From: an uncultured Dokdonia sp.
Lineage (GTDB): Bacteria > Bacteroidota > Bacteroidia > Flavobacteriales > Flavobacteriaceae
Direction of reading: 5' to 3'
Assembly (NCBI RefSeq): GCF_947492535.1
Contig: NZ_CANLNH010000009.1
Location: forward strand, 140,626 to 204,625
Length of the DNA: 64,000 nt
Within the stretch, counting starts at the first letter, position 1, and each line of letters opens with the position of its first letter. Under the pieces are notes generated by a model. It searched no databases and was not told the origin of the DNA. It saw only the letters and a list, made by a program, of their open reading frames with translations. Both the position numbers and the translations under genes were made by a program. Of the stretch, positions 2,606 to 22,899 are shown in pieces.

Positions 2606-3898
2606 TTATCGTTTAAATATATCACGCAATTGATAGAAGAAACGCTCTATGAGTCTTAGATCCTCTGTAATGATATCTCCCGTACCTCTCATTTCCTGTT
2701 GAAAATCTATTTCTTTATCAAACGTAGTCACTAGCGTTTCAGGAAGAGATACATCAATAGCATACATCCCTTCTTCATCTGCAATAACAGATATCTTTTC
2801 TATTCTACCTTCTAATGTTCCAAACTCAGTATCAGGGTAATTTTCAAGTCTTACAATCACCTCTTGTCCTAATTTTATTTTTCCAGAATTTTGCGCAGGT
2901 GTTTTTAATTTTGCAACATATTCTGATCCATCGTTAGGAATGACAGTAAAAACGACATCTCCTGCATTTACGGTTTGATTTTCGCTCCAAAAATTAAGAA
3001 AAGAAACTTTACCATCTAGTTTAGAAGTTAACGCAAAATTAAGCTCCCAATCTTTAATACTTGCCTTAAGTACATTGAGAGACTGAATCACTCCATTCAA
3101 TAAGACTCGCTCTTCGCGAGCGCCGTCAATTTCTGTTCCCTTAGCTGTGCTTTGAGCACCACTAATAGCTTCTTTTAATTGAGAAATTGAAGCCTCTACA
3201 TTTTTATAGTTACGTTCTACTTGAGAAAACTCTATTCTTCTCCTTTCTACTTCTGAAGTTGCTATTACTCCATTACTATAGAGTTCTTCGTAACGCTCTT
3301 TTTCTTTCCTAGCTAGGTCTAATTCGTCTTTATTGAGTTGACGTTGTGACTCTGTGAATTTTAATCGTCTATTTTGCTCAGAAATAGAAATACGATTTGC
3401 AATTGCGCGATTAGAAAAAGGTTGAAATTCTTTATTCAGTTCATACAACACATAACTATTTACAAAAAGTGCATAATTAGTTTCTATATTTCCTAGAGAA
3501 AGCTCTGGAATCTTTGTATAAGGAAAATAGAACGATTCATTTTGTAATGATATCGTATCTAATGCAGCTTTAAGGGTATATATATCTTTATAATTTGCTG
3601 CGTTTTCAATAATCGCAAGAGGCTGATTCCTTACCACATCTTGATTATCTTCTACTAAAATAGCAGAAAACCTTCCTGAACTTTTTGCGCGTTCTTTTTG
3701 AGGAGGTACTTGTGTAGTTATAATAGCTTGCGAAGGAATAATATCTGGGTATTCTAAAAACCAAGAAATAGCAAGTAATAAGATTATTAGTCCTAAAAAA
3801 AGTGCGCTTCCCCAACGTATCATCCAGTTAGGAGCTCGTGTTAAAATCTCTTGAACCTCTTCGCTACGTAATTCTATGTCATCTATTTGATCTGGCAT
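2606..3898 (-). CDS. HlyD family secretion/membrane-fusion protein
   Basis: N-terminal TM helix, long coiled coil, beta-barrel C-terminus; adjacent to C39 ABC exporter. Confidence 0.9.
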   Translation of the reverse strand: MPDQIDDIELRSEEVQEILTRAPNWMIRWGSALFLGLIILLLAISWFLEYPDIIPSQAIITTQVPPQKERAKSSGRFSAILVEDNQDVVRNQPLAIIENAANYKDIYTLKAALDTISLQNESFYFPYTKIPELSLGNIETNYALFVNSYVLYELNKEFQPFSNRAIANRISISEQNRRLKFTESQRQLNKDELDLARKEKERYEELYSNGVIATSEVERRRIEFSQVERNYKNVEASISQLKEAISGAQSTAKGTEIDGAREERVLLNGVIQSLNVLKASIKDWELNFALTSKLDGKVSFLNFWSENQTVNAGDVVFTVIPNDGSEYVAKLKTPAQNSGKIKLGQEVIVRLENYPDTEFGTLEGRIEKISVIADEEGMYAIDVSLPETLVTTFDKEIDFQQEMRGTGDIITEDLRLIERFFYQLRDIFKR

Positions 3899-3910
3899 TC
3901 CTTTTCTTTT

Positions 3911-6103
3911 TTACGATCCTAATTCTAACTGATTTTTTACTAGATTATAATAATACCCTTTTTCACGAGTAAGTGTTTCGTGGTTTCCAACTTCTACGAT
4001 TTTACCTTGATCTAATACAACGATTTGATCTGCATTTTTCACAGTGCTTAATCGGTGGGCTATTACGACAGCTGTTCTATTTTTAAAGAACTCATCCAAC
4101 TTCTCCATGATTACTTTTTCATTATTTGCATCTAATGCACTAGTTGCCTCATCAAAGAATAAGAAATTAGGATCTTTATATACAGACCTAGCAATAAACA
4201 AACGCTGTTTCTGACCTGTACTTAAACCGACACCTTCCATTCCTATTTTCGTATTATACGATAAAGGCAGTGACTCTATAAAGTCTTTAATATTAGCAAC
4301 ATCTACAGCATGCGCAAGTTTTTTCTTATCTACATAATCATCTCCTACAGCAATATTATTGGCTATCGTATCATTAAACACATATCCTTCTTGCATAACC
4401 ACACCACAAGATGCTCTCCATGAGTATTGCGAAATATTCTGCAAGTCAGCACTTCCAATTTTTATTTGCCCTTCATTAGGTTCATAAAACTTAAGCAAGA
4501 CTTTCATTAGTGTTGTTTTACCACTACCACTTACCCCAACAATAGCGGTTACTTTATTTGCTGGAATATGCAAGCTCAAACCATCAAGTACTTTAACATC
4601 AGAGCCAATATATCTAAATGAGATGTCTTTAATATCAAAATCTGCATTTTTAGGGATGTCTGTTATTTTTGTTTCTTCTCTTCCTTCTTCATCTTCTTTA
4701 TTGTGTATTTCTCCTAGACGATCTAATGAAATACGAGCATCTTGTAATTCTCTAATAAAGCTTATTAACTGCGAAATAGGAGAGTTCAATTGCCCTACGA
4801 TATACGTAACAGCAAACATTTCCCCCAGTAATAAATCTCCATCAATTACGAGTGTTGCTGATAAAATGGTAATTAAAATATTTTTAAGCTCGTTTATAAA
4901 TCCAGAACCTACACTCTGATATTGTTCTAATGCAAGGCTTTCTATAGAAATCTTAAAGAGACGTGCTTGCATAAACTCCCATGACCATCTCTTTTGTTTT
5001 TCTGCATTATGAAGCTTGATTTCTTGCATTCCGTTAATAAGCTCAATCACTTTACTTTGTTCTTGACTTACTTGAGAGAAACGCTTATAATCAAGATCGG
5101 CTCTCTTTTTAAGGAAAATAACAATCCAGAAAAAATAAAGCACACTTCCTAATAGAAATATTCCAAAAATTTGAAAACTATAATAGGCTAATACAAAGCC
5201 AAACACCACAAGATTCACCATTGAAAACAACACATTCAATGATGATGTTGTTAAGATACGCTCTATACGTCTATGGTCATTAATACGCTGTAAAATATCT
5301 CCCGTCATACGTACATCAAAAAATGATATAGGTAGATTCATCAGTTTGATAAAGAAATCTGAGATTAAAGAGATATTAATACGGGTACTTAAATGCAGTA
5401 AAATCCAACTTCTAATTACCTCAACTCCTGTTCTTCCTAAGAATAAAGCGACTTGTGCAATAAGTATTAAATAGATAAAATTAATATCTCGTGTTTTAAT
5501 ACCTACATCAACAACACTTTGTGTTAAAAATGGGAAGACCACTTGCAACAAACTTCCTGCAAGGAGTCCTATGACTAACTGAACAATAAATTTTCTATAT
5601 CTGAATACATATTTAAAGATAAAAGAGAAGCCAAAATTCTTTTTTTCTTCTTCAAAATGCTCTTCATAAAACTTAGGAGTCGTTTCAAGTAATAATGCAA
5701 TTCCTTCGGCTGTAGCGTCTGTAGCATTATTCCCTATCCAAAATTTAAGGAGTTCTTCTTTTGTATATTTTAATATGCCATGTGCAGGGTCAGAAATATG
5801 AAAGACACCTCTTGAGATCTTATAAAGTACTACATAGTGGTTTTTATTCCAATGGAGTATACATGGCAATGGAACTTCTTCTTGAAGTTGATCCAACGTT
5901 ATTTTCACCCCTAAGGTTCTAAAACCAAGTTTTTCTGCTGCATTACTAATTCCTAATAAACTACTACCAGATCTTGTGGTTTCACTAAGACTTCGTAGTA
6001 ATTGAATAGGAATAGGTTTCTTATAGTATTTAGCAATCATTTTGAGGCATGTAGGCCCACAATCTTTACTATCTGCTTGTTTATAAAAAGGAAACTTCTT
6101 CAA
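3911..6103 (-). CDS. Peptidase C39-containing ABC transporter (bacteriocin/RiPP processing exporter)
   Basis: N-terminal QADSKDCGPTCLKMIAKYYKK (C39 Cys) and HYVVLYKI His; Walker A GVSGSGKTT; LSTGQKQRLFIARS. Confidence 0.95.
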   Translation of the reverse strand: MKKFPFYKQADSKDCGPTCLKMIAKYYKKPIPIQLLRSLSETTRSGSSLLGISNAAEKLGFRTLGVKITLDQLQEEVPLPCILHWNKNHYVVLYKISRGVFHISDPAHGILKYTKEELLKFWIGNNATDATAEGIALLLETTPKFYEEHFEEEKKNFGFSFIFKYVFRYRKFIVQLVIGLLAGSLLQVVFPFLTQSVVDVGIKTRDINFIYLILIAQVALFLGRTGVEVIRSWILLHLSTRINISLISDFFIKLMNLPISFFDVRMTGDILQRINDHRRIERILTTSSLNVLFSMVNLVVFGFVLAYYSFQIFGIFLLGSVLYFFWIVIFLKKRADLDYKRFSQVSQEQSKVIELINGMQEIKLHNAEKQKRWSWEFMQARLFKISIESLALEQYQSVGSGFINELKNILITILSATLVIDGDLLLGEMFAVTYIVGQLNSPISQLISFIRELQDARISLDRLGEIHNKEDEEGREETKITDIPKNADFDIKDISFRYIGSDVKVLDGLSLHIPANKVTAIVGVSGSGKTTLMKVLLKFYEPNEGQIKIGSADLQNISQYSWRASCGVVMQEGYVFNDTIANNIAVGDDYVDKKKLAHAVDVANIKDFIESLPLSYNTKIGMEGVGLSTGQKQRLFIARSVYKDPNFLFFDEATSALDANNEKVIMEKLDEFFKNRTAVVIAHRLSTVKNADQIVVLDQGKIVEVGNHETLTREKGYYYNLVKNQLELGS

Positions 6104-6131
6104 AATGATACGTCTATTTTTTTTACTACTA

Positions 6132-7019
6132 TTACTTCTTTTTATTCTTAAATGTTCTAATCCCCCACGCTACTTTATAATGTCTATACAAAAGATCATA
6201 TACCACCATTTCATGCAATCTGTTTTTTGACCTAAACATCCTGTTCATAAGCATATGAGCATAACTTCCTAAATAGGCATCTATTTTTTCATTAGATGCA
6301 GACTTTTTAAGTGCTTCAATAGTCGTTTTACTCTTTTCACTTTTATACGCCAATAATTCCAAAAGAGGTTGATACTCTGGACGATCCTCGGCTTTAAAGT
6401 CTATAAAGAAAGTTATTTTTTCTCGTTTAGAACGGAATTTTTCATCTAATTGTTTCTTAAGAAACTTATTCATCCCAAACTCTTGTCCAAAGCCAGTTTT
6501 TAATCGTTCCATAAAAGCTAACTTTTGGTCTTCTGAATAGTCAAAATCTGCTAGCATGGTATCCAATGCTCTTATAGAAAAAAGCCATCGTAACTCTTCT
6601 CCTTCTTCCCCATCTACCATATCTAAAAAGTTAACAATCATATCACTTTCATGGGAGAATAACTGTTCTGCGGCTTCAATATGTTCTTCCCCGTATCGTT
6701 CAATTTCTCGATTGTAGGTGTCTAGCTGTATTTTCCATATTAAATCCGCTTTCGCGAAAGCGTGTAAATGTGCATATACTGTTTTCATAATGACCCCTAT
6801 TGCGTCTGCATCTTTATAGTGAAAACGCACCCTAATATGATGTTTAGGGTCTGCATATCGTATAAAAAACCACTGATCTATATGTCCTTTTTGAAACAGC
6901 TCTTCTGTGATAGGCTTAATCGCTTCTGCAAGTACAATATCAGCTGTTTTTGTTCCTGTGTATATTTTATAATACACCCACGAATCTCCTGGTATAAATG
7001 TACGTTGTGTATTAGGCAT
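6132..7019 (-). CDS. Thiopeptide-type bacteriocin biosynthesis protein (SpaB C-terminal/elimination-type domain)
   Basis: WVYYKIYTGTKTADIVL...WFFIRYADPKHHIRVRFHY; overlaps LanB ORF by 8 nt. Confidence 0.9.
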   Translation of the reverse strand: MPNTQRTFIPGDSWVYYKIYTGTKTADIVLAEAIKPITEELFQKGHIDQWFFIRYADPKHHIRVRFHYKDADAIGVIMKTVYAHLHAFAKADLIWKIQLDTYNREIERYGEEHIEAAEQLFSHESDMIVNFLDMVDGEEGEELRWLFSIRALDTMLADFDYSEDQKLAFMERLKTGFGQEFGMNKFLKKQLDEKFRSKREKITFFIDFKAEDRPEYQPLLELLAYKSEKSKTTIEALKKSASNEKIDAYLGSYAHMLMNRMFRSKNRLHEMVVYDLLYRHYKVAWGIRTFKNKKK

Positions 7020-9243
7020 CAGACTGTTGTTTTAAAAGGGTTTCATTGTAAAAAGATAAAATCACTTGATTTGTATAGGATGCATTTTCTCCAGAAACAA
7101 CACTTTGTTCAGTATGTAAAAATTCTTTGAGTATAAATCGTCCTCGCTTTTTTACTGTTGACAACAACATTTGTACACTCGTTATATTTTTTAAATTGAT
7201 TAGTAGTTCATTATCACTATCCTTCAAAAGCACGTATTGGGGTAATTGTTTTTCTTTTATAAATAGTTCCAAATTCTCTTGAAAATTACCCATATTTTTT
7301 AGGGAATTTTGAAGTGCCTCTATATCAGACTTTAAAATATTCCAAGTTTTTGAAGATAAAATAACTCCTTTATAGACAACTCTAGGCAAGAACGGAAAAT
7401 CCCCTTCATAAGGTCCCCAGTGAAAACCGATCCCTCCTCGTTTATTTTGGCTCTGCATATTTGCCAAAAATTGATAAATAGGCAATGCACCACTAGAATA
7501 ATTATGAGCATTACTTAAGTGTGGAATCACTTCTTTATTATATTTTTTTGAACGTAAAATAACACGATCTCTTTTTACAGATACCATTAAGTCATCAATG
7601 GGAAGTTGCGCCTCTGTATTTAATACAGATTTAGCTAAATATGGAATTTCATACTCTCTCAAAGCAGGTCGCATTAATATATTTCCTACTCTTGATTCTG
7701 GAAGGTGTACTATTTCTGCTAGGATTCTATTTGAATTACATCGTTTTTCTACAGCGATTATTTCATTTACATATTCATGTATTTCTGGATCACTATGACA
7801 GAACCTACCTAATAAATTTGCTGCACTAGAGCCTCCTACATTTGCCATTACAATCTGTTCTTCACCATCAATATTTACTACTTCTACCATTGTCGAAATG
7901 GTATCTGGCAAGTCTTTCCAGTTTTCTTCAAATTTGTCAAAATCTGAATCTATAAGCGTAACTATTTGTTTATTCTCACGTAAGCAGTCTACTAATTTTT
8001 CATGTAAAATAGTATGGATGGTATTCCACTTTACTTCTCTCGTCGTGATTTTTGCAGACCCACCTGGCAGCATAATATCATCTACTAACGCACTTACATC
8101 ACCAGAATCTTTATTTTGAAGAAAGCCTACTCCTAGTTCTACATCTAATGCCTGAGATAAAGGAACTTCTCTATCTTCATAACGTTCATAAAATGCTTTT
8201 CTAAATTGTGATAATAATGTTTCACTAGGTGCTTGTGAGATCTTATTAAGCAAACGCATTACACGTCTTACTTTGTAAAGCAATTGCTTATTTAAACTAT
8301 TTTTTTGGGGATGTAGCGACATATCTGTCTGAAACAGATACTTGAGTTCAAAACCCGTATTTAATGCTTCTAAAGAAGTACTTATATCTATATAGTCTGA
8401 AGACGGGTTTCCTATTTTCGTGTCAAGTTTTTTAATTTTTAGCTGTGTTTCTTCTAACTTTTCTACAAATCGAGCAGTGCCTTCAAGTTTTTTTAGAACA
8501 GGAATAATTTGATCTGTAAACTCTGGACCAGAAACAGACGGTTCTAGTTCACTCACTAGCAACTGACTATTTACCAATTCTTCTATAAACCCTGAAGCCA
8601 CTTCTAATGAAATCTCATCATCTACCAAGCATTCTGATACTACCGCTAGTGTTGCTCCTGAAGCTGCTGTACTTAGTACTCTTTGTAAATATTCTGAATG
8701 TTGTACTCCAACAATATGATGCATCCTACGACTATTTTCATAGTGATACTCTACATAACGTAATTGTGATCCTGCTTTATATATACTTGTATTAGGATAA
8801 AAACGGAGTTGTTTTCGTATCGTTTCATCTTTTACAATATCTTGAGACAGTGCAACGAGATAATTCATATCAAGCCTCGTATGTCTTTTATTTTCTGTAG
8901 ATTTTTTTAGAACAATGTCTGTCTCTTCTCCAAAAACGCCTACGGTAGTCCCTGCAAATAATCCAAAAGGGGTACATCTAGATGACATTCTACTTATGTA
9001 TTTAAGTATCGAATATGTCATACGTTCACTATCACTAGGATTTGCTTGACCCTCTAACCATTTTTCAAAAGCGGTATATAAAGATGGGGAAGCTAAAAAA
9101 AGTGCTTCTTTAATATGTGCTTCTTGACATATTTTTTTGAGCGTATCTTGTGTTAAGATAGAATCTTTTGTAAGCTCAAAAAAGAAGTTAAGCGGGAGTA
9201 AAGGTGATCTTAAAACGTATTTGGGAAAATGGGTGTATTGCAT
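7012..9243 (-). CDS. Lantibiotic dehydratase, N-terminal (glutamylation) part; split LanB
   Basis: RSPLLPLNFFFEL, SRMSSRCTPFGLFAGTTVG, NYSSGALPIYQFLANMQ motifs. Confidence 0.93.
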   Translation of the reverse strand: MQYTHFPKYVLRSPLLPLNFFFELTKDSILTQDTLKKICQEAHIKEALFLASPSLYTAFEKWLEGQANPSDSERMTYSILKYISRMSSRCTPFGLFAGTTVGVFGEETDIVLKKSTENKRHTRLDMNYLVALSQDIVKDETIRKQLRFYPNTSIYKAGSQLRYVEYHYENSRRMHHIVGVQHSEYLQRVLSTAASGATLAVVSECLVDDEISLEVASGFIEELVNSQLLVSELEPSVSGPEFTDQIIPVLKKLEGTARFVEKLEETQLKIKKLDTKIGNPSSDYIDISTSLEALNTGFELKYLFQTDMSLHPQKNSLNKQLLYKVRRVMRLLNKISQAPSETLLSQFRKAFYERYEDREVPLSQALDVELGVGFLQNKDSGDVSALVDDIMLPGGSAKITTREVKWNTIHTILHEKLVDCLRENKQIVTLIDSDFDKFEENWKDLPDTISTMVEVVNIDGEEQIVMANVGGSSAANLLGRFCHSDPEIHEYVNEIIAVEKRCNSNRILAEIVHLPESRVGNILMRPALREYEIPYLAKSVLNTEAQLPIDDLMVSVKRDRVILRSKKYNKEVIPHLSNAHNYSSGALPIYQFLANMQSQNKRGGIGFHWGPYEGDFPFLPRVVYKGVILSSKTWNILKSDIEALQNSLKNMGNFQENLELFIKEKQLPQYVLLKDSDNELLINLKNITSVQMLLSTVKKRGRFILKEFLHTEQSVVSGENASYTNQVILSFYNETLLKQQSDA

Positions 9244-9411
9244 TCTATAATGCGCTATAATTTAAGTTAATTTTAATTTCAAAAAGTTAACTACCAAGAT
9301 ACTAGAATATATTCATCTAAGCTAATAGTTTTTCTAATTAAACCCTCATTATTTACAATTTGTATTGATCTATTTCATTTTTGTTCATTCAAATGGGTAA
9401 TTACATTTCAT

Positions 9412-9445
9412 GTAAAAGCCACCTTGCAAACAAGATGGCTTTTAC
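9412..9445 (-). terminator. Hairpin between precursor 1 and lanB (terminator or attenuator)
   Basis: GTAAAAGCCACCTTG-CAAA-CAAGATGGCTTTTAC, 15-bp arms with 1 mismatch. Confidence 0.7.
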
Positions 9446-9485
9446 GTATTGATTTACTTCAAAATAAATCAATAGGTACATTTTA

Positions 9486-9632
9486 TTAATAACATTCTCT
9501 TCCTGGAGGAGGACAGCTATTAAAAGCATCTTGTGTAGTGCAGCAATGCGAACCTCCGCCTTTTACTTTATTTAATTCTAGATTACTAATTACTTCTTTG
9601 TTTAATGTTAATCCTTTTAGTGAATTTTTCAT
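9486..9632 (-). CDS. Lanthipeptide precursor 1 (48 aa, class I-like leader): MKNSLKGLTLNKEVISNLELNKVKGGGSHCCTTQDAFNSCPPPGRECY
   Basis: Hand-translated; not in ORF track. Same leader as precursors 6 and 7, GG motif, core rich in Cys/Ser/Thr. Confidence 0.9.
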   Translation of the reverse strand: MKNSLKGLTLNKEVISNLELNKVKGGGSHCCTTQDAFNSCPPPGRECY

Positions 9633-9656
9633 AATTCTATGTTGTTACTTAAAATA

Positions 9657-9686
9657 CCTACTCTAGTTAAGGTTTTCGGCTTTCCC
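9657..9686 (-). promoter_or_regulatory. Conserved 5' leader element (GAAAACCTTAAnTAGAGTAGG family), precursor 1
   Basis: Same element upstream of precursors 1, 2, 5, 6 and 7. Confidence 0.7.
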
Positions 9687-9766
9687 TTGTCAAAAATTGG
9701 TTGTTAACAATGCAATAATTCTGACACTAAAGTAGCCTAGACAAAAAGATGAAAAAAGAAACCTAT

Positions 9767-9788
9767 CGGTATTTTAGACAAAATACCG
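9767..9788. promoter_or_regulatory. Putative operator, type A, upstream of precursor 1
   Basis: CGGTATTTT-AGAC-AAAATACCG, perfect 9-bp arms. Confidence 0.7.
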
Positions 9789-9791
9789 CAT

Positions 9792-9821
9792 AAAAAAAGC
9801 GCTGACTTACAGCGCTTTTTT
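9792..9821 (-). terminator. Hairpin terminator downstream of peptide 2
   Basis: AAAAAAAGCGCTGACTTACAGCGCTTTTTTT. Confidence 0.75.
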
Positions 9822-9835
9822 TCTTTATTTATTTA

Positions 9836-10006
9836 CTAATGAAAATGCGAATATGTACAACCCATTTCTCTAGACAATTCTGGATCTGTATGTGGATCTG
9901 GATCTGTAGGATCACTACTTCCTCCTTGTATTTTCAATAGTTCGCTTGTATTAATCTTTGCTATCGTTAACTTTTTAAGATTTAGTGTTTTAAATTCTTT
10001 TTTCAT
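9836..10006 (-). CDS. GG-leader peptide 2 (56 aa) paired with regulator A: MKKEFKTLNLKKLTIAKINTSELLKIQGGSSDPTDPDPHTDPELSREMGCTYSHFH
   Basis: Hand-translated; not in ORF track; directly downstream of regulator A. Confidence 0.85.
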   Translation of the reverse strand: MKKEFKTLNLKKLTIAKINTSELLKIQGGSSDPTDPDPHTDPELSREMGCTYSHFH

Positions 10007-10028
10007 GATACTAATTGTTTTATCTACT

Positions 10029-10048
10029 CCTACTCTTTTAAGGTTTTT
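10029..10048 (-). promoter_or_regulatory. Conserved 5' leader element, peptide 2
   Basis: cctactcttttaaggttttt, matches the element of precursors 1, 5, 6 and 7. Confidence 0.6.
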
Positions 10049-10114
10049 CAGAATCCTCCTATATAATTGAATTTGAAATATACCTTAAGTGATTTTCCGT
10101 TCACAATGAAACAA

Positions 10115-10136
10115 CCGTATTTTGTCTAAAATACGG
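10115..10136. promoter_or_regulatory. Putative operator, type A, between regulator A and peptide 2
   Basis: CCGTATTTT-GTCT-AAAATACGG, perfect 9-bp arms; centre is the reverse complement of that in site 9767..9788. Confidence 0.7.
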
Positions 10137-10151
10137 TAGGATTTTCATCTC

Positions 10152-11873
10152 TTAAGCCGCAGTATTCTTTAGTATCTCGATATTCTTAATATAGTACGAA
10201 GGATTAATCCCTGTTTTAGATTTAAAGTGCTTTACAAATGATTTATCACTTTTATATCCTACTTCTAAAGCTATAGACGCTATAGAAAAAGATCGAAATC
10301 TTTTATCATTTTTTAATTTTGTCAATGCATATTCTATTCTTAAATCATTTATATATCCATTAAAGTTTTTACCCTTATGAGTATTTATTATTTTGGACAA
10401 ATACGTGGCATTGGTTTTTGTTTTTTTGGCTATCGTTCTAAGACTACAATCAGGTTTTAAAAAGTATTCTTGTTTTTCCAGTTTAGAAAGTCCTTTCAAA
10501 ACAGCATCTACTTTATCATCATCAATGGCAATCTCTGCTACTATTTTCTTAGTCTTCTGTTCTTCTTTTTGTTGTTTATGAGATTCAAGTTGATCTATCT
10601 GACTGATTAAATTATTGAATAACATTTTATTTTTTTTCTGCTTTCGCCAGAAAGAATACCCTACTATTAACAGTAAAACAAAAGTGATAAGCAATCCTAT
10701 TTGTGCATACCTCTTATTTGCTTTCTCTAAAGCTATTCGTTCATTAGCTGCATTTTCTTCTTTTTCAAAAACTCTATTCCTGGTTTTACCTTCATTTTTT
10801 TTATATGCATTTGTAAGCTCCATATATATTTTATGGTATACCCAAGCTTGTTTATCTTCTCCTAATTCTCTGTGGCATTCCATAAGTAAGTAATACGTTT
10901 GAATAATAGGAAGTTTATTGGTGTCTTCATCTTCTAAATTAGATACTATTATATTCAGGTAATCAATAGCATCATGATATAACCCTTTATCATATTTAAG
11001 CTTCGCCAAAAAGTAATGTACTCTTACTTTCTGATGGAAGTCATTATCTAACGCATACTCGCTAATTATTTTTTTTGCTTTATCTAAAAAAAACTGCGAT
11101 TCTTCTCTGCTATCTTTATTATAATAAACAATACCTTTCTTTATGTATAAATCTGCAAGTCCTTTTTTATAGTTTAAAGAATCTGCGATTTTTATTCCTT
11201 TATCTGCAAGTGATATAACTTTATCGTATTTCTCTGCTCCTAGATAAACATCATTAATCGTCGTAAGCATCTGTACATAATTTTTAGTATTCCTGTCTGA
11301 AGATTGTTCTAACGCTAGCAATAGTTTATCAGACATATCAAGTGCTTTTTCTAACTGATCATCCATTTGTGATATAAGACTGATATAACTCGAGGTTGCT
11401 ATGTTTTCTAATGTTACATATGCATGTTTTTTAGCAATATCTATTGCCGTATTGTAAAGATCTACTGCTTGTTCATTGTTACCATCAAGCATAAATGATT
11501 TTGCCTTAATAATAGAAATAACACAGGTTCTTCTTTTTTCATTATTTTTCTTTGCTAAATCTAGCGCCTCGTCTAGATATTGATGCGCCTTTTCATAATT
11601 TTCTTCTTTAGAAAAACGTCTTCCTAATTCCTGGTATATCTCGGCAGTATTATTTTCTTTAGCACGTTTTAAAACCACTTTTTCATAAAATGCGGCTTTA
11701 TCTAATTTTGCGCTTTTAATTAGTTGCACAAGCTCTTGTGAAGATTTATTAACTAAACTATCAGTAATCTGAACAGATGCTTCTTGGGCATAGAAAAAAT
11801 GTGTAGAACATAAAATAATTAGTACTGTAATCGTATTGATTATAAGAGGTATTTTCTTTGAGAAAAAAGTCAT
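10152..11873 (-). CDS. Regulator A: membrane-spanning TPR / AraC-type HTH transcriptional regulator
   Basis: Signal peptide, TPR-like repeats, single TM (IGLLITFVLLLIVGYSFW), C-terminal AraC HTH (GYKSDKSFVKHFKSKTGINPSYY). Confidence 0.9.
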   Translation of the reverse strand: MTFFSKKIPLIINTITVLIILCSTHFFYAQEASVQITDSLVNKSSQELVQLIKSAKLDKAAFYEKVVLKRAKENNTAEIYQELGRRFSKEENYEKAHQYLDEALDLAKKNNEKRRTCVISIIKAKSFMLDGNNEQAVDLYNTAIDIAKKHAYVTLENIATSSYISLISQMDDQLEKALDMSDKLLLALEQSSDRNTKNYVQMLTTINDVYLGAEKYDKVISLADKGIKIADSLNYKKGLADLYIKKGIVYYNKDSREESQFFLDKAKKIISEYALDNDFHQKVRVHYFLAKLKYDKGLYHDAIDYLNIIVSNLEDEDTNKLPIIQTYYLLMECHRELGEDKQAWVYHKIYMELTNAYKKNEGKTRNRVFEKEENAANERIALEKANKRYAQIGLLITFVLLLIVGYSFWRKQKKNKMLFNNLISQIDQLESHKQQKEEQKTKKIVAEIAIDDDKVDAVLKGLSKLEKQEYFLKPDCSLRTIAKKTKTNATYLSKIINTHKGKNFNGYINDLRIEYALTKLKNDKRFRSFSIASIALEVGYKSDKSFVKHFKSKTGINPSYYIKNIEILKNTAA

Positions 11874-11981
11874 TAATGTATTGAATAAGAATGTGTTTCC
11901 AAATGTAACTATTCTTACAACTAACTACTTAGTTAAATTATTATAATTAACATCTATTTATAATAAGAATATGTTATATAC

Positions 11982-11995
11982 GCTTTCGCGAAAGC
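11982..11995. repeat. GCTTTCGCGAAAGC palindrome (representative intergenic copy)
   Basis: One of 13 intact copies in the window. Confidence 0.95.
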
Positions 11996-12179
11996 GTATA
12001 AAGAAGTGATTTTTCTATAATAGTATGTAAAAAAGCCCATCTTCTTCCTTTCAGAGAAAATGGACTTCATCAATTAATAATCAATAAAACTCAATTATTA
12101 ATTACAAGCTACTAACCAATAGATTAATTCACTAATCTTCTAGAAGTGCTAATAATAGATAGGCCTTCAGTTAAATCTA

Positions 12180-12386
12180 TTAACAAGCTATCCAAACATT
12201 ATTTGCACAAACTAGATTTACGGGTCCCGCTAGACATGGTGGGCCCCAATAAGGACCTCCACAACAGAAAGCTCCTTCTTCTGGGCATTCTTGATCTATA
12301 CAAAACCCAAAACCACCATTAATGTTTTTTTGATCTTCTTTCTTTAAAGATTCAATTCCTTTAATATTTAAAATGTTTTTTAACAT
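12180..12386 (-). CDS. GG-leader Cys-rich peptide 3 (68 aa)
   Basis: MLKNILNIKGIESLKKEDQKNINGG leader; six Cys in core. Confidence 0.85.
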   Translation of the reverse strand: MLKNILNIKGIESLKKEDQKNINGGFGFCIDQECPEEGAFCCGGPYWGPPCLAGPVNLVCANNVWIAC

Positions 12387-12412
12387 AATATAAAATTTAA
12401 AATGAATGTATC

Positions 12413-12436
12413 CTTGATCATTTAATGACGCTCAAG
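12413..12436 (-). promoter_or_regulatory. Second-class 5' leader hairpin, peptide 3
   Basis: CTTGATCATTTAATGACGCTCAAG (+ strand); matches 20404..20427. Confidence 0.65.
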
Positions 12437-12479
12437 GTTTGCGTCACACTCAAGCTTGAATATTTTAAATATCATATAA

Positions 12480-12767
12480 TTAGTTTCCATAAATTGTAAC
12501 AGGATCTAAGATGACATTGCTTTCACACATATCTAAGTAAAAGTCTGCCAATGACAAGTATTCCATCACTGTCAATGTTCCTCCAGAAGCAACATCGTCA
12601 TAATTTGCTTGATCAAACGCCCATTGAACGCAACTTTCTGGGTGATCTTCTGCTAGTAATTGGTAATAAAACTCTTCACAAGTTTCTAATTCTGTAGAAG
12701 AAGCATTTGCAGTAAACCCTGCGAGTAATAGCAATAAAAAGCCTATTGTATTTTTAAGTTTTCTCAT
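12480..12767 (-). CDS. Small secreted Cys-containing protein (95 aa)
   Basis: N-terminal signal peptide MRKLKNTIGFLLLLLAGFTANA; upstream of and co-oriented with peptide 3. Confidence 0.75.
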   Translation of the reverse strand: MRKLKNTIGFLLLLLAGFTANASSTELETCEEFYYQLLAEDHPESCVQWAFDQANYDDVASGGTLTVMEYLSLADFYLDMCESNVILDPVTIYGN

Positions 12768-12853
12768 AATATATTTTTAACATTAATTTTTTATGTTGCA
12801 ACACATTACAAATATGAACTGTATTTTTAGCACTTGCAATTTGAGCATACTGG

Positions 12854-12887
12854 TATTCATGAAAAACGAATTCGTTTTTCATGAATA
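12854..12887. promoter_or_regulatory. 34-bp perfect palindrome; putative double type B operator in the divergent intergenic region
   Basis: TATTCATGAAAAACG-AATT-CGTTTTTCATGAATA; two inverted ATTCATGAAAA copies with CATG centres 22 bp apart. Confidence 0.8.
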
Positions 12888-13078
12888 TTAATAATATGTT
12901 CTAATGATTAGCATTAGATGTACATCGTATCCTTAGTGTGTACGACGAGACAAATTATCTAGTGAACTTTGATCGGGATTTACATTTCGCAAAAAGATAT
13001 CGTGTAGGTTTAATAAATTGATAAAGGATACTTACATTTATTATCTCAAAACCACCTAATGACCCTTATTACTTTGTT

Positions 13079-14776
13079 ATGAAGTTATTAACTCACCTTC
13101 TTATATGTATTTTCTTCTTAAGTAGTATCAATACTTTATTAAGTCAAAATAAAGCAAAATCTATTGATACTTTAAAAAATAAAACGGCGCAAGAACTTTT
13201 TTACATCTCTGCAAGAAGCCCTGACATTTCTATTCTTGAAAAAGCTATTAAAAAAGCCAAAGAAGAAAATAATATGTCAGTCCTTATCAACAGTTATAAC
13301 TATATGGCTTTACGATTAAAAGATGAAAATAAACTATTGTATAGTGACAGTATTATTGCTTTAAAAGATACATATAGCAATAGTTTCTATCCTGCAAGTG
13401 CTTACTATAATAAAGGTTTTTATTTTTTTAATAACGGCAACTTTATTAAAGCAACAGATAATTTCATCAAAGCCAATGAATATGCAAATAGATATTATAA
13501 CAAAGACATGATCGTTCGCTCAAAGCAAAGTTTAGGATTACTAAAAAAAGAAACAGGGGATTATAAGCAAGCACTTACGCTTTATAAAGAAAATTTTGAA
13601 TTTGCTACTTCTGGAAATACTAATACATTATCAAACACAGATTATCTTGAAATTATTCTTTCTATAGCCTCTACTTACAACGAACTAAACAATTATGATT
13701 CAATATCTTACTATAACGACTTTGGAATTAAAGAATCTTTACGTTTAAAAGACACCACTAAATACAATGACTTTATTTTAAACGAGGCTAAAGCGCTTTT
13801 TAATAAAGAAAAATATGATCGCTCTTTAAATAATTTAATTAAGATATTACCCTATTATAAATCTAGTAATGATCATGCAAATTTATCTTTTACCTATTAC
13901 TATTTAGCTAAAAACTATTTGAAATTAAAAGAAGACAAAATAGCGATTCAATTTCTAAAAAAAGTAGACTCACTTTATATAGAAAGCAATGATGCTAGAC
14001 CAAAAACAAAAGTGCAAGAAAGCTATGCGTTATTAACCTCTTATTATAGAGATCAGAAACAGTTAGAAGATTTAATTATATACCAAGATAAAACCATTGC
14101 TTTAACCAATAAGTTGCATGCTAATGAACTATATACTAATAAAAAAATTGTAAATGATTACGACATCCCATTAATATTGGCTAACACCAAAAAAGCTATG
14201 GACAAGATTAAAGCAAAAGAAAAGCGAACAAAATTGCTTTCTTATTTCTTGGTCGTTATTATTATAGCTATTCTTATCATTTTGTTTTATTTAAATACAC
14301 GAAGAAAAGTGTACAAAAAGATATTTGAGGAGTTAATCAGTAAAAAGGATGATACTTTAAATCTAAAATCAATTAAAAAAGAAAAACCTTCTACAAAAAC
14401 AACATTAAATATTCCAGATACTGTTGTTTCAAAAATCTTAACTAGTTTAGAAAAGTTTGAGAAAGACAAGGAATATCTTAATTCAAAAATATCTATTGCT
14501 GGTTTAGCTAAATCTATTGGAACGAATCCTAATTACCTCTCTAAAACTGTCAATCATTTTAAGGAAATGTCTTTTTCTCAGTATATCAATACGCTTCGAA
14601 TAACATATGCAGTAAGCTCTTTAAAAAATGATTCTATCTATAGAAAATACACCTTAAAGGCGATTGCTGCTGAGTTTGGATTTAACAATACAGAGTCATT
14701 TTCTAAAGCATTTTATAAAGAAACAGGTATCAAACCTTCTTTTTTTATGAGAAGTATTGAAAAGACAAACACATAA
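13079..14776 (+). CDS. Regulator B: membrane-spanning TPR / AraC-type HTH regulator
   Basis: Signal peptide, TPR-like region, TM (LLSYFLVVIIIAILIILFYL), C-terminal HTH (GFNNTESFSKAFYKETGIKPSFF). Confidence 0.9.
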   Translation: MKLLTHLLICIFFLSSINTLLSQNKAKSIDTLKNKTAQELFYISARSPDISILEKAIKKAKEENNMSVLINSYNYMALRLKDENKLLYSDSIIALKDTYSNSFYPASAYYNKGFYFFNNGNFIKATDNFIKANEYANRYYNKDMIVRSKQSLGLLKKETGDYKQALTLYKENFEFATSGNTNTLSNTDYLEIILSIASTYNELNNYDSISYYNDFGIKESLRLKDTTKYNDFILNEAKALFNKEKYDRSLNNLIKILPYYKSSNDHANLSFTYYYLAKNYLKLKEDKIAIQFLKKVDSLYIESNDARPKTKVQESYALLTSYYRDQKQLEDLIIYQDKTIALTNKLHANELYTNKKIVNDYDIPLILANTKKAMDKIKAKEKRTKLLSYFLVVIIIAILIILFYLNTRRKVYKKIFEELISKKDDTLNLKSIKKEKPSTKTTLNIPDTVVSKILTSLEKFEKDKEYLNSKISIAGLAKSIGTNPNYLSKTVNHFKEMSFSQYINTLRITYAVSSLKNDSIYRKYTLKAIAAEFGFNNTESFSKAFYKETGIKPSFFMRSIEKTNT

Positions 14777-14801
14777 AAAACAGTGTTTTATGAATTAAAA
14801 T

Positions 14802-14823
14802 TACCAATATTCATGAAAATCGG
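14802..14823. promoter_or_regulatory. Putative operator, type B, between regulator B and peptide 4
   Basis: ACCAATATT-CATG-AAAATCGGT; shares ATTCATGAAAA with 12854..12887. Confidence 0.65.
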
Positions 14824-14891
14824 TATATACTTCTAAAATAAGAGTTCAAGTCTTCTTAGTTTTAACTCAATCAATTAATAAAACAATATTC

Positions 14892-15131
14892 ATGAAAAAG
14901 AAATTAGATCTAAACAAATTCAAAATTGCGAGTCTAACAACAATGAAAACATTAAAAGGAGGAACTGGTGATGAAACAGGAGGAATTGAAACAGAACCTA
15001 ACACACTACCTCCACAATGTTTAACAAATACACAACCCGATCCTGATTATAATTCTGACGGTCCTTTAACTCCTCCAACCTGTTTACAGACTTCTGCAGT
15101 ACAAGTAACTGCTTTTTGTAATCATGGGTAA
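14892..15131 (+). CDS. GG-leader peptide 4 (79 aa) paired with regulator B
   Basis: MKKKLDLNKFKIASLTTMKTLKGG leader; directly downstream of regulator B. Confidence 0.85.
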   Translation: MKKKLDLNKFKIASLTTMKTLKGGTGDETGGIETEPNTLPPQCLTNTQPDPDYNSDGPLTPPTCLQTSAVQVTAFCNHG

Positions 15132-15220
15132 TAATACATTGATGATCATGTTATTTAATAAATAACTAAAAAGGGTGAATATGTTATCTAACATATATAT
15201 TCTTTTTTGCTTTATATCTT

Positions 15221-15265
15221 TATACGCTTTCGCGAACCTGCCTCGCCGGCAGGCAGGAGCGTATA
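15221..15265. repeat. TACGCTTTCGCGAAAGCGTA palindrome interrupted by a CCTGCC..GGCAGG palindrome
   Basis: tacgctttcgcgaa | cctgcctcgccggcaggcagg | agcgtata. Confidence 0.85.
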
Positions 15266-15270
15266 TTAAA

Positions 15271-16485
15271 TTACCCAATCATTAAGCATTGATTCCAATC
15301 TGTTTTTTCTGGATTTAAATACGATAGAATAGCAAGTCCTATACCTGCAATACCTTCCAAAAGACTGTTTTCTTTTTCGTAGGTAGGTGTATCTCCACCT
15401 CTCCATTTCTTATATCCCGCAGATCCATCTTTATGATGGTCTATTGTCAACCCATAATCTATCCAATAATCGGCAGCTTCTTTAAAAATTGGAGTCCCTA
15501 TTTCCTTATACATAAAATCAAAAATATGCATCACACCAAAAGCGCCATGGCATAATCCTCCATCTACAATTCGGGTTTCTTCTATATCTCTACGCGTTGC
15601 AGCATGTTCTAAAAGTTGTATTGAGGTTTGCTTTACATCTTCATTTTGCATCACTTTTGCGGCTTGCCAAAGCGAAACTGCAACCCCCAAATCGCCATAA
15701 CACCATGCGAGTCTACTACTTTCAGTTTCTTCATTATTATTTGTAATCCAGTCCGGAAAATAAGAGGTGGTTACCTGTTCTCTTTTACGACTCATTAAAT
15801 GATGTATTGACTGTTCTAAAAGAGGTAGTGCTTGTTTAGAAAAAACAGTGTGCTTTGAAAGTCTAGCTAAAAAATTAATAATACTAGATAATCCATGTGA
15901 AAGACTTAGGTTACACCCTTTAAGCCCTTCTTCTCTTATAAGAATTGATTCCCAATAGATGCCATACTCACCTTTTTGAGCTGTATTATCTAGCTTAGCA
16001 ATCATCTCTAACAACATCTTTTCGTACTTTGCTTTGAGCTCTTCAGAGGTTGTATTTTCATACCTCTTTAAAAAATAGTAGCCTATTCCTATGAGGCCAT
16101 GTAGAAAGTCATAAAAATTATCTTTATCATTGAGATTTGCAACATGATTTAAATAATCATCTAACACTCCTAGAAGACCATCTGTATCTACTTCTATAAA
16201 TTCTAACTCATTAAGAAGTTCAATAGTCCATGCTGCTCCCGCAATTCCTCCACAAAACGTATGAAAATTGTATCCTTCATTAATGCTACCCACTATAGAT
16301 GCTATAATTTCACTTCCAACATCTTCACTTATTTCATTAGGGTTATAGGCATTGTAATAAAAGTGATATAATGCAAGTCCTGAGCTACCTGAAAGCACTC
16401 CTACATCAGTAGTGTCTAGCTCTCCATTTGCTATAAGCTCTTTATTTATTTCTTCTAATTTATCTTTTAATTTTTGCTCACGCAT
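15271..16485 (-). CDS. LanC-like lanthionine cyclase
   Basis: GVLSGSSGLALYHFYY, LAWCYGDLGVAVSLW (CYG), GLCHGAFGVMHIF (CHG), LLEGIAGIGLAIL. Confidence 0.93.
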   Translation of the reverse strand: MREQKLKDKLEEINKELIANGELDTTDVGVLSGSSGLALYHFYYNAYNPNEISEDVGSEIIASIVGSINEGYNFHTFCGGIAGAAWTIELLNELEFIEVDTDGLLGVLDDYLNHVANLNDKDNFYDFLHGLIGIGYYFLKRYENTTSEELKAKYEKMLLEMIAKLDNTAQKGEYGIYWESILIREEGLKGCNLSLSHGLSSIINFLARLSKHTVFSKQALPLLEQSIHHLMSRKREQVTTSYFPDWITNNNEETESSRLAWCYGDLGVAVSLWQAAKVMQNEDVKQTSIQLLEHAATRRDIEETRIVDGGLCHGAFGVMHIFDFMYKEIGTPIFKEAADYWIDYGLTIDHHKDGSAGYKKWRGGDTPTYEKENSLLEGIAGIGLAILSYLNPEKTDWNQCLMIG

Positions 16486-16518
16486 ACTGTACTAATTTTT
16501 AATGAAATATACACATAA

Positions 16519-16549
16519 AAAAGCCATCTTACGATGTAAGACAGCTTTT
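16519..16549 (-). terminator. Hairpin between precursor 5 and lanC (terminator or attenuator)
   Basis: AAAAGC-CA-TCTTAC...GTAAGA-CA-GCTTTT. Confidence 0.65.
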
Positions 16550-16579
16550 AAAATATACAATGAATGTATAATTTCTATA

Positions 16580-16735
16580 CTAGAAGCACTGCATTCCTGG
16601 AGGTGGGATACTAATTAAAGTTCCTTCAGCGCTTCCTGGTCCGCAACCACAAGTTCCTTGTCCTTCAATTTTGTTTAATTCTAAACTACTAATTACTTCT
16701 TTGTTAAGCGATAATTCTTTCAATGATTTTTTCAT
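16580..16735 (-). CDS. Lanthipeptide precursor 5 (51 aa) with atypical GQG junction: MKKSLKELSLNKEVISSLELNKIEGQGTCGCGPGSAEGTLISIPPPGMQCF
   Basis: Hand-translated; not in ORF track; leader nearly identical to precursors 1, 6 and 7. Confidence 0.9.
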   Translation of the reverse strand: MKKSLKELSLNKEVISSLELNKIEGQGTCGCGPGSAEGTLISIPPPGMQCF

Positions 16736-16762
16736 GATAATTCTGTATTAGTTAATAAAGAG

Positions 16763-16794
16763 CCTACTCTATGTATAGGTTTTCGGCGTGTCCC
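16763..16794 (-). promoter_or_regulatory. Conserved 5' leader element, precursor 5
   Basis: cctactctatgtataggttttcggcgtgtccc. Confidence 0.7.
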
Positions 16795-16875
16795 TAAAAT
16801 CAATAAATAATTAAAATTTATTTTTCGATTCTTTATAAAAATACACTGTAAATCAACGTCTTACAACTTAACACA

Positions 16876-17085: not shown

Positions 17086-17235
17086 CTAGTAGCACTGTGC
17101 TCCTCTTGGTGGGCAGGTATTTAAAGGACCATCTGTAGGACAACAATGTGTTGCACCACCTCCATCAATTTTATTTAATTCAAGATTACTGATAACTTCC
17201 TTGTTAAGTGTTAATGCTTTCAATGACTTTTTCAT
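17086..17235 (-). CDS. Lanthipeptide precursor 6 (49 aa): MKKSLKALTLNKEVISNLELNKIDGGGATHCCPTDGPLNTCPPRGAQCY
   Basis: Hand-translated; not in ORF track. Confidence 0.9.
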   Translation of the reverse strand: MKKSLKALTLNKEVISNLELNKIDGGGATHCCPTDGPLNTCPPRGAQCY

Positions 17236-17257
17236 GATTATTCTAGTTTAATAAAGA

Positions 17258-17288
17258 CCTACTCTATTTAAAGGTTTTCGGTTTCCCC
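17258..17288 (-). promoter_or_regulatory. Conserved 5' leader element, precursor 6
   Basis: cctactctatttaaaggttttcggtttcccc. Confidence 0.7.
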
Positions 17289-17367
17289 TTATATTATAGT
17301 TCATATTCTGACAAACTAAATACGATACTTGTTAACGCAATTTTGTATGGATGTATCATTCATAATA

Positions 17368-17433: not shown

Positions 17434-17583
17434 CTAGTAGCAATATACTCCTGGAGGTGGGCAACTGTTTAAAGCGCCACCAGTAGGACAGCAATGTGTT
17501 ACACCTCCACCTTCAACTTTATCTAATTCAAGATTACTGATAACTTCTTTGTTAAGTGTTAATTCTTTCAATGACTTTTTCAT
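17434..17583 (-). CDS. Lanthipeptide precursor 7 (49 aa): MKKSLKELTLNKEVISNLELDKVEGGGVTHCCPTGGALNSCPPPGVYCY
   Basis: Hand-translated; not in ORF track. Confidence 0.9.
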   Translation of the reverse strand: MKKSLKELTLNKEVISNLELDKVEGGGVTHCCPTGGALNSCPPPGVYCY

Positions 17584-17605
17584 GATTATTCTGGTTTAAT
17601 AAAGA

Positions 17606-17635
17606 CCTACTCTATTTAAGGTTTTCGGCGTTCCC
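17606..17635 (-). promoter_or_regulatory. Conserved 5' leader element, precursor 7
   Basis: cctactctatttaaggttttcggcgttccc. Confidence 0.7.
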
Positions 17636-17715
17636 TTATAATTAAACACATAAATATTGTGTATTCAATCAGGAATCAAATTAGTCAACTATAGAGAGTT
17701 AAAAAAGTACTGTTG

Positions 17716-17791: not shown

Positions 17792-17968
17792 TTATGGTAA
17801 ATCATTTGTGGTGCAATAAAGATCTGAACAGTTATTGCTATGTTTATACCAATCAGTACCATCTGTAGGAATACAATCTCCTCCATTAATAATATCCATT
17901 CCTCTTGTTTCTATTCTAGCAATTGTAAGTTTATTAAGGTTAATACCTTTCTTTACTTGTTTTTTCAT
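17792..17968 (-). CDS. GG-leader peptide 8 (58 aa) paired with regulator C: MKKQVKKGINLNKLTIARIETRGMDIINGGDCIPTDGTDWYKHSNNCSDLYCTTNDLP
   Basis: Hand-translated; not in ORF track; directly downstream of regulator C. Confidence 0.85.
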   Translation of the reverse strand: MKKQVKKGINLNKLTIARIETRGMDIINGGDCIPTDGTDWYKHSNNCSDLYCTTNDLP

Positions 17969-18082
17969 ATGAGTGTGTTTTATAAAAATTAATGTTAGCT
18001 AATATGTTTGAAAATTATAACATATCTATTTTTAGCGTTCCTTAAATGTAATTGCAATCTCTATAGAAACATAATTCACAAT

Positions 18083-18104
18083 CCCTAAATTGTTTAAAAT
18101 AGGG
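18083..18104. promoter_or_regulatory. Putative operator, type C, between regulator C and peptide 8
   Basis: CCCTAAATT-GTTT-AAAATAGGG; reverse complement CCCTATTTT-AAAC-AATTTAGGG matches the sites of precursors 5 and 7. Confidence 0.65.
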
Positions 18105-22647: not shown

Positions 22648-22899
22648 ATGAAAAAATCAAAAAAAGTACTTGAATTAAACAAACTTGTAATTTCAAAATT
22701 AAATGATCTTCATTCTATAAATGGAGGGTCACAAAATACAGACGAAGAGACTACATGTACTGGTCAAGGTGCATCAGATATATCTCCTTTATGTCCAAGA
22801 GTAAGTAGACCTAATGGGGTTTGCGACACTGAAAATGACAACACCTGTAATGGTAGACCAGGTGGTACGGGTACAGAAATTGTGAGTTTAGGTTGCTAA
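22648..22899 (+). CDS. GG-leader peptide 10 (83 aa) paired with regulator D
   Basis: MKKSKKVLELNKLVISKLNDLHSINGG leader; directly downstream of regulator D. Confidence 0.85.
   Translation: MKKSKKVLELNKLVISKLNDLHSINGGSQNTDEETTCTGQGASDISPLCPRVSRPNGVCDTENDNTCNGRPGGTGTEIVSLGC

Follow-up and report, generated by a model that had tools for sequence, protein, structure and literature searches.

The split-LanB lanthipeptide locus of an uncultured marine Dokdonia sp. (Flavobacteriaceae; contig NZ_CANLNH010000009.1) contains four peptide genes that each lie behind a receptor-like regulator gene of their own, an arrangement that suggests a chemical signalling system. These peptides, termed class B, are probably LanB-modified pheromones, each sensed in the periplasm by its own TPR-AraC receptor, which would in turn switch on lanthipeptide effectors. 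The reading draws on sequence comparison and structure prediction, namely on the conserved pairing of regulator and peptide and the association of this pairing with split LanB, the topology and predicted fold of the receptors, the class-specific RNA leaders and the covariation of peptide core and sensor. Coordinates and strands below refer to the analysed window, a stretch of 64,000 nucleotides of this contig.

Enzymes and extent of the locus

The locus begins with the exporter's HlyD-type membrane fusion protein (2606..3898, -; PF13437, 45 bits) and a C39-peptidase ABC exporter predicted to cut GG leaders (3911..6103, -; PF03412, PF00664 and PF00005), both at the places originally predicted. 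LanB is split, as had also been proposed, into an elimination or C part of 295 aa (6132..7019, -; PF14028, 244 bits) and a glutamylation or N part of 743 aa (7012..9243, -; PF04738, 490 bits), with 8 nt in common (nt 7012-7019). By these domain matches, the glutamylation and elimination domains of a class I lanthipeptide cluster are present. Among solved structures the N part matches 9g04 (E 1.5e-54) and NisB 4wd9 (1e-25), and the C part aligns with 729-856 of 4wd9 and 762-885 of 9g04. The LanC cyclase (15271..16485, -; PF05147, 172 bits) lies at the expected distance, 6.0 kb from LanB; its motifs WCYG and LCHG, which we take to be the zinc ligands (Cys/Cys-His site), align with solved LanC-like proteins (8byk). 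No LanFEG- or LanI-type gene occurs among the ORFs of the unit, in line with the original prediction, judged from the ORF lists and from Pfam searches of ten proteins and two small ones. Likewise, these ORFs include no histidine kinase or response regulator, and Pfam searches assigned no family to a 95-aa ORF (12480-12767) and a 73-aa ORF (2323-2544).

The start at 2606 holds, but five precursors (17086, 17434, 17792, 20189 and 22648) lie past the predicted end at 16735, as does half of the set of four regulators, so the unit really covers about 2606-22899. The proposal of a class I cluster that has a split LanB and several precursors agrees with the Pfam domains and with the pattern of split LanB, LxLxKx5L leaders and GG/C39 processing published for Bacteroidetes class I clusters, as far as given in the accessible part of the source (PMC7268733). 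The cluster is not a chance assembly, since it is the single PF04738 place in the genome and its arrangement is seen again in relatives.

Precursor peptides

Ten precursors in three leader classes were recovered, the number originally predicted. All ten carry GG-type leaders, lanthipeptide-like in eight, and the NCBIfam lanthipeptide leader model NF038153 touched seven of ten small proteins scanned, in every case short of its cut-off (13.6-21.7 bits, cut-off 22). Class A, defined from ORFs and alignment, comprises A1 (9486..9632, -; family alignment, core SHCCTTQDAFNSCPPPGRECY), A2 (16580..16735, -), A3 (17086..17235, -) and A4 (17434..17583, -). On the same basis, class C consists of the Cys-rich GG peptide C1 (12180..12386, -) and of C2 (20189..20374, -). 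The six class A and C peptides are effector-like, class C being only putative LanB substrates.

The class B peptides, again identified as ORFs and by alignment, have leaders of the lanthipeptide L1a type and are located at 9836..10006 (-), 14892..15131 (+), 17792..17968 (-) and 22648..22899 (+), as partners of the regulators R1, R2, R3 and R4, respectively. The R3-paired peptide has a DCxPT...C core, a type also found in related operons. Class B cores (n=106) have a median length of 25 aa and are net negative in 99 cases; Ser/Thr is present in 106/106 and Cys in 104/106.

Regulators and their pairing with class B peptides

R1 (10152..11873, -) combines a signal peptide, TPR, a TM segment and an AraC HTH (PF13424, PF12833, TM prediction). 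The same architecture is found in R2 (13079..14776, +; Pfam), R3 (18143..19876, -; Pfam, structure modelled with pLDDT 89) and R4 (20818..22548, +; by alignment). Among the 135 non-redundant regulators of Flavobacteriaceae, a TM segment is predicted in all 135, and 115 have an N-terminus resembling an export signal, with [AGS]Q after a hydrophobic stretch. In the cluster's regulators the HTH is C-terminal and AraC-type (PF12833), not the N-terminal Xre-type HTH that is a feature of Rgg, PlcR and NprR. Among the bacterial matches listed for the R3 model, RRNPP pheromone receptors score best (Z 22-25; the list is a realignment of Foldseek's matches and does not exclude families outside it), and the alignment with peptide-bound Rap/NprR extends over about 300 residues. 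This fold match is weak, unspecific evidence, because many eukaryotic TPRs score equally high against the model.

Each of the four regulators has one class B peptide directly downstream (4/4). The combination of several leader classes with four regulators, previously called unusual, is thus more pronounced than stated, and the order of regulator followed by class B peptide had been missed. By inspection of the whole genome, eight of nine regulators are followed by a class B peptide, four of these eight away from LanB. Throughout Flavobacteriaceae, a class B peptide follows 106 of the 135 regulators, which is not an unbiased rate because L037-L114 among them were retrieved using a profile of four regulators whose pairing was already known, and because the same regulator set also served to train the class-B score. 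The control values are 8/134 on the upstream side of the regulators and 4/722 for other genes. The pairing as a quirk of this Dokdonia genome is ruled out by 106/135 versus 4/722.

Adjacency alone is predicted just as well if class B peptides are products, ordinary lanthipeptide bacteriocins, under dedicated TPR-AraC activators whose TPR senses something else, such as envelope stress, a nutrient or a rival's peptide. We consider this unlikely, although their L1a-type leaders and their dependence on the presence of LanB also fit it.

Association with split LanB

Of the 47 genomes that carry these regulators and were searched for LanB, 44 contain it, against 18/199 in the family, and the regulator profile matches 17/18 LanB-positive versus 28/181 LanB-negative genomes. 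These 28 LanB-less genomes contain 39 related regulators, with a peptide in 0/39 by the strict and 1/39 by the relaxed score. In LanB-positive genomes a peptide lies beside 9/45 regulators (strict) or 21/45 (relaxed), leaving 24/45 without one even by the relaxed score. The pairing as a general trait of the regulator family is therefore ruled out by its absence in LanB-less genomes. The peptide-less members in these genomes indicate that the family can sense other things, a point in favour of class B peptides as products.

In the family and class samples, the regulator adjoins split LanB at 10/15 loci and full-length LanB at 0/17, the latter ruling out the pairing as a companion of any LanB. 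No regulator is in view at 13 of 55 split LanB loci, 40 of which come from genomes picked for carrying the regulator; L304 and L305 were left out of this count (short contigs, LanB ORF not found). Like the 24/45 regulators without a peptide, these 13 loci count against the pheromone reading. The LanB-less set and the full-length-LanB set are the fairer tests of the pairing.

Seven genera have the order LanBN>LanBC>REG>B, with LanBC and regulator overlapping or at most 7 nt apart. Their genomes, with LanB, regulator and peptide, lack LanC entirely, and class B is the only L1a-type candidate seen immediately next to LanB. This singular position speaks against class B peptides being products, as do their acidic cores and the two Cys-free cores, L243 and L307, both from the LanC-less architecture.

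Covariation of core and sensor

The similarity of class B cores correlates with that of the TPR (r 0.63); within-genome shuffling of partners gives a mean of 0.25, and 0/999 shuffles reach 0.63. The partial correlation of the core with the N-terminal TPR is 0.43 (0.33-0.53), that with the linker/TM part of like divergence 0.05 and that with the HTH -0.17, while leader and N-terminal TPR correlate at -0.05. The signal comes from closer pairs, the divergent half giving 0.08, so a shallow-tree effect is possible. By sequence similarity, class B cores track the N-terminal TPR sensor and not the DNA-binding domain, only among closer pairs, a further argument against products under dedicated activators.

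RNA leaders and promoters

Matches to the cis-regulatory DUF805b RNA (RF02914) precede A1 (9655..9689, -; 40.4 bits, over gathering), A2 (16761..16797, -; 29.1 bits, E 1.3e-4, below the gathering score of 35.6), A3 (17256..17291, -; 42.1 bits), A4 (17604..17638, -; 37.8 bits) and, exceptionally for class B, the R1-paired peptide (10027..10061, -; 36.9 bits). The cluster thus has four matches over gathering (36.9-42.1 bits) and a fifth below, in front of 4/4 class A genes and one class B gene. Across loci, where class A and C genes were counted with regular expressions, the motif, itself counted by a regular expression fixing parts of both helices, is found at 3/105 class B genes, and is present at class A and many class C genes; that class B lacks this leader again disfavours class B peptides as products. 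Loop/tail pairs covary as a pseudoknot absent from the structure line of the covariance model. The alternative of an AraC operator is ruled out for this 5' motif by the compensatory pairs and the Rfam match, which point towards RNA.

Class B promoters contain a terminator-like hairpin, a TATATTTC box and an element resembling ATTATGAT, not demonstrably present in class A. A search for an operator common to class B, class A and LanB promoters found none, a further point against the pheromone reading. Within the window, the 5' element of the R1-paired class B gene has no second exact copy, and a variant of it matches exactly at 2/254 loci.

The original prediction of one enzyme set with many substrates is right as to the several precursors and incomplete in that these form two differently wired groups. 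Ten precursors as equal substrates are unsupported, because class B differs from A and C in linkage and 5' leader RNA. A plain multi-substrate cluster, in which one LanB/LanC set serves ten equivalent precursors and the regulators have no special meaning, would fit the shared GG-type leaders, the eight lanthipeptide-like ones among them and a single exporter that could suffice, but is highly improbable given the non-random 1:1 pairing of regulators with class B, the different RNA leaders and the further pairs scattered over the genome.

Proposed circuit

In the pheromone reading, the class B precursor would be the signal, dehydrated by split LanB and probably bridged by thioethers where LanC exists. 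The C39/HlyD exporter would cut it at GG and export it. Having either returned to the periplasm or never left it, the resulting peptide of about 25 residues would be recognised there by the TPR domain of a one-component receptor whose gene lies immediately upstream of its own. The bound receptor would signal through one TM helix to its cytoplasmic AraC-type domain and turn on its own peptide gene, LanB/LanC and the effector genes. Class A, and perhaps class C, would act as effectors under separate control by the DUF805b RNA leader.

A receptor that reads modified class B merely to confirm modification and export before effectors are made, with no cell-to-cell signalling, would suit the strict dependence of class B on LanB, the joint operon of LanBN, LanBC and regulator and the periplasm-facing receptor, but the presence of several diversified pairs in one genome, four of which lie apart from LanB, suggests many channels and not one checkpoint, which makes this the least probable reading.

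More tentatively, at slightly short of an even chance, the pheromone reading extends to an undescribed family of Bacteroidota circuits. Split LanB would then first of all make dehydrated acidic pheromones, each with a transmembrane TPR-AraC receptor, in up to eight channels per genome; DUF805b-led effectors would be later or optional additions, and the pheromones of LanC-less genera would be unbridged or self-bridged.

Comparison with known systems

In nisin-type autoinduction via NisRK, the lanthipeptide induces its own cluster. The lanthipeptide could do so here as well, but, unlike in nisin, with no histidine kinase or response regulator among the ORFs of the unit, and with separate signal and effector peptides. 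The likeness to RRNPP receptors consists of the TPR superhelix, itself unspecific, and the adjacent peptide gene; their cytoplasmic form without a TM segment is not matched. According to the available part of PMC7595303, the RRNPP systems TprA/PhrA and TprA2/PhrA2 of Streptococcus pneumoniae control lanthipeptide genes by a TPR receptor and a peptide gene, and such a combination is tied to lanthipeptide genes here, too. TprA-type receptors are described there as cytoplasmic, with the Phr peptide imported by an oligopeptide permease (PMC7595303), whereas the present receptor is from Bacteroidota and transmembrane with an AraC HTH, and its peptide has a GG lanthipeptide-type leader. Pinensin-type clusters (Chitinophaga) share split LanB, LanC, GG leaders with a C39 protease and LxLxKx5L; unlike in these clusters, as far as described in the accessible text, split LanB is here tied to TPR-AraC receptor/peptide pairs (PMC7268733).

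A literature search, largely outside subscription journals, found no description of TPR-AraC/lanthipeptide pairs and no mention of DUF805b. In this locus, RF02914 marks genes of lanthipeptide and bacteriocin-like effectors. To our knowledge, peptide signals of such a kind are hardly known in this bacterial group. If the pheromone reading is true, Bacteroidota would gain peptide-based sensing with named receptor and ligand genes, and LanB would have a use without LanC. Some predicted 'class I lanthipeptides' of Bacteroidota may then lack antibiotic activity because they are signals. Inducers for silent clusters would come within reach, and the orphan DUF805b RNA would obtain a coherent set of targets, the secreted effector peptides.

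Organisation of the lanthipeptide cluster

At about 2606-22899 the window contains a class I lanthipeptide cluster comprising a HlyD protein, a C39 ABC exporter, a LanB divided over two overlapping ORFs, LanC, ten precursors with GG leaders and four large regulators (R1 to R4, each with a signal peptide, TPRs, a transmembrane segment and an AraC-type HTH), which bears out the original prediction of such a cluster with LanB, LanC, C39, HlyD and precursors. The LanB parts align with NisB and the 9g04 enzyme, and LanC with a solved LanC-like protein. PF04738 has its single place in the whole 4.86-Mb genome here, and one of the two strong C39 matches genome-wide belongs to the cluster. The nearest relatives found are Dokdonia, the R1 of Dokdonia pacifica being 71% identical. 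A 95-aa ORF with a signal-peptide-like N-terminus lies between the class C gene C1 and R2 (12480-12767) and matched no family in a Pfam search. By eye, we take 24967-27131 to be an EgtB/EgtD-like pair and 36030-44599 a hydroxyproline/proline-racemase-like catabolic cluster.

Pairing of regulators and class B peptides

Among the three leader classes (A, B and C), class B is tied to the regulators: R1 (10152), R2 (13079), R3 (18143) and R4 (20818) each have a single class B peptide directly downstream on the same strand (9836, 14892, 17792 and 22648, respectively). The four regulators had been recognised beforehand; this one-to-one order (4/4 in the window) had been overlooked. The same genome encodes five further full-length regulators of this kind outside the window, four of them followed by a class B-type peptide, and its regulators are paired in 8/9 cases by inspection and 7/9 by strict score. 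The four pairs outside the window are spread over three loci, whose fetched stretches lack a C39 exporter. The genome's second peptide locus (L026, G000:C14:58000-77900) holds two regulator/class B pairs and four class C-like GG peptides, with neither C39 exporter nor LanB in the region retrieved.

A scan of named genomes yielded 78 loci, chiefly of Aquimarina, Kordia and Dokdonia, which together with the window's genome and the LanB loci provided 135 non-redundant full regulators. With a class B leader score of at least 12 and a distance of at most 600 nt, a class B peptide is present downstream of 106/135 regulators versus upstream of 8/134, and downstream of 4/722 other genes as a control; because the score was trained on the same set, the contrast with the controls counts and not the pairing percentage. 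Several unpaired regulators possess the same peptide type with AG or GA replacing GG, as seen in the scoring output. Class B cores (n=106) have a median length of 25 aa and a mostly negative net charge (99 negative, 3 positive), with Cys in 104 and Ser/Thr in all 106.

The hairpin CCCTATTTT-AAAC-AAAATAGGG recurs 3' of the regulator and before class B (e.g. window 17969-18142 and 10007-10151), followed by a ATTATGAT-like element and then a TATATTTC box upstream of the class B start. This gap looks like a terminator plus a separate promoter for class B, and the ATTATGAT-like element is possibly an operator.

RNA leaders of classes A and C

Class A (THCCPTxGALNSCPPPGxxCY-like) and the Cys-rich class C accompany class B in relatives. 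The orphan cis-regulatory RNA DUF805b (RF02914) has Rfam matches before the class A genes A1, A3 and A4 and the R1-paired class B gene, a sub-threshold match before A2 and none before either class C gene of the window. The window RNAs are located at 9655-9689, 10027-10061, 16761-16797, 17256-17291 and 17604-17638. A motif search of the fetched loci found DUF805b at most 70 nt from the start in 36/41 class A, 34/57 class C and 3/105 class B genes. The genome has 11 DUF805b places at E < 1e-4, five inside the window cluster; other copies in this genome (L255-L265) precede larger proteins, some apparently secreted, plus one class C peptide. As DUF805b also precedes larger proteins, the RNA extends beyond lanthipeptides.

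Stem 1 is variable, with compensatory changes (five window sites and 101 distinct locus motifs). Three base pairs between the loop (NCC, preceding GAAAA) and GGN in the 3' tail are all present in 96 of the 101 distinct motifs and persist through the changed pairs GTC/GAC and ATC/GAT. DUF805b resembles a very small H-type pseudoknot whose end lies about 20 nt upstream of the start codon.

Dependence on LanB and locus architecture

For the LanB search 49 loci were submitted and 47 genomes were searchable; LanB-N is present in 44 of these 47 genomes with such regulators, and the three genomes lacking it include the two with peptide-less regulators (L109, L112). Among 199 genera in a family survey, LanB-N occurs in 18, and the regulator profile in 17 of these and in 28 of the 181 genera without LanB. 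A peptide lies beside 0/39 regulators (strict score) or 1/39 (relaxed score) in the 28 LanB-less genomes, and beside 9/45 or 21/45 in 16 genomes with LanB (relaxed-score background 8/234). Split-LanB loci contain a regulator in 8/12 cases of the family sample and 2/3 of the class sample; full-length LanB loci of the broad family and class samples contain none (0 of 2 and 15, respectively).

In Dokdonia and Aquimarina the order is regulator, B, A, LanC, LanBN (glutamylation half), LanBC (elimination half), in some cases followed by C39 and HlyD, most compactly in locus L153. Other genera display a second order, LanBN, LanBC, regulator, B (in some with a subtilase), in which LanBC and the regulator overlap or are at most 7 nt apart. 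No LanC was found genome-wide in seven genera of this second architecture, whose class B cores often bear an STLVC-like C-terminal motif. The class B core of L243, a locus of the LanC-less architecture, is free of Cys, as is that of L307. The missing LanC in seven genera and the Cys-free cores suggest that the basic requirement is dehydration and not LanC-catalysed ring closure.

A subtilase gene (PF00082) is situated immediately 3' of the class B peptide in three LanC-less operons (L239, L241, L245) and adjoins a regulator/class B pair in L144; the subtilase may trim the peptide. In Kordia (L130-L138) two conserved genes lie immediately upstream of LanC/LanB; in L130, the one locus compared with Pfam, they encode ECF-sigma-like and TPR proteins.

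Regulator topology and covariation

The R3 model (55 sequences, mean pLDDT 89) consists of an N-terminal helix, a TPR superhelix (45-347), a single long membrane-crossing helix and a C-terminal AraC domain. Its top bacterial structural matches are the peptide-bound pheromone receptors Rap and NprR (Z 22-25); unrelated eukaryotic TPRs score 25-29. A transmembrane segment is present in 135/135 regulators, and in 115/135 a hydrophobic stretch precedes [AGS]Q, so that the TPR part is expected on the periplasmic side. The [AGS]Q pattern fits the Q-rule as outlined for exported Bacteroidetes proteins (PMC10653852).

Class B could be the ligand of the TPR domain or a mere output of the regulator. In 94 regulator/class B pairs from 44 genomes, core similarity correlates with TPR similarity at r 0.63 and with HTH similarity at 0.49, with partial correlations of 0.47 and -0.12, respectively. 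After partners are shuffled inside 28 genomes, the core-TPR correlation averages 0.25 and never exceeds 0.38. By segment, the partial value of the core is 0.43 for the N-terminal TPRs (interval 0.33-0.53), 0.05 for a linker/transmembrane segment of like divergence and -0.17 for the HTH; the leader has the opposite pattern (-0.05 versus 0.31). As the core signal sits in the N-terminal TPRs and not in linker/transmembrane segment or HTH, there is moderate evidence for a ligand over a mere output, moderate because the signal falls to 0.08 in the more divergent half of the pairs.

Proposed peptide signalling

The arrangement, its conservation, the LanB dependence, the topology and the RNA leaders are grounded in sequence. 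With class B as ligand, LanB would modify the peptide, which would be exported and then bound by the TPR domain; the bound peptide would activate the AraC part of the regulator, and effectors would be switched on afterwards. The closest known logic is that of pneumococcal TprA2/PhrA2, a TPR receptor whose peptide is described as de-repressing a lanthipeptide gene (PMC7595303). The regulators studied here differ from RRNPP members in localisation and HTH type. A Bacteroidales RiPP survey goes no further than suggesting that TPR genes near clusters are pheromone-binding and reports the order to be without LanB (PMC10352776); the role of associated TPR proteins is termed unclear in a graspetide survey (PMC8939145), and term counts in the text of a Flavobacteriaceae BGC survey found no mention of AraC or quorum (PMC10734526). 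The lanthipeptide cluster itself is of a known type; the wiring of receptor and peptide looks like a new form of peptide signalling whose ligand, receptor and modifying enzyme can each be tested.
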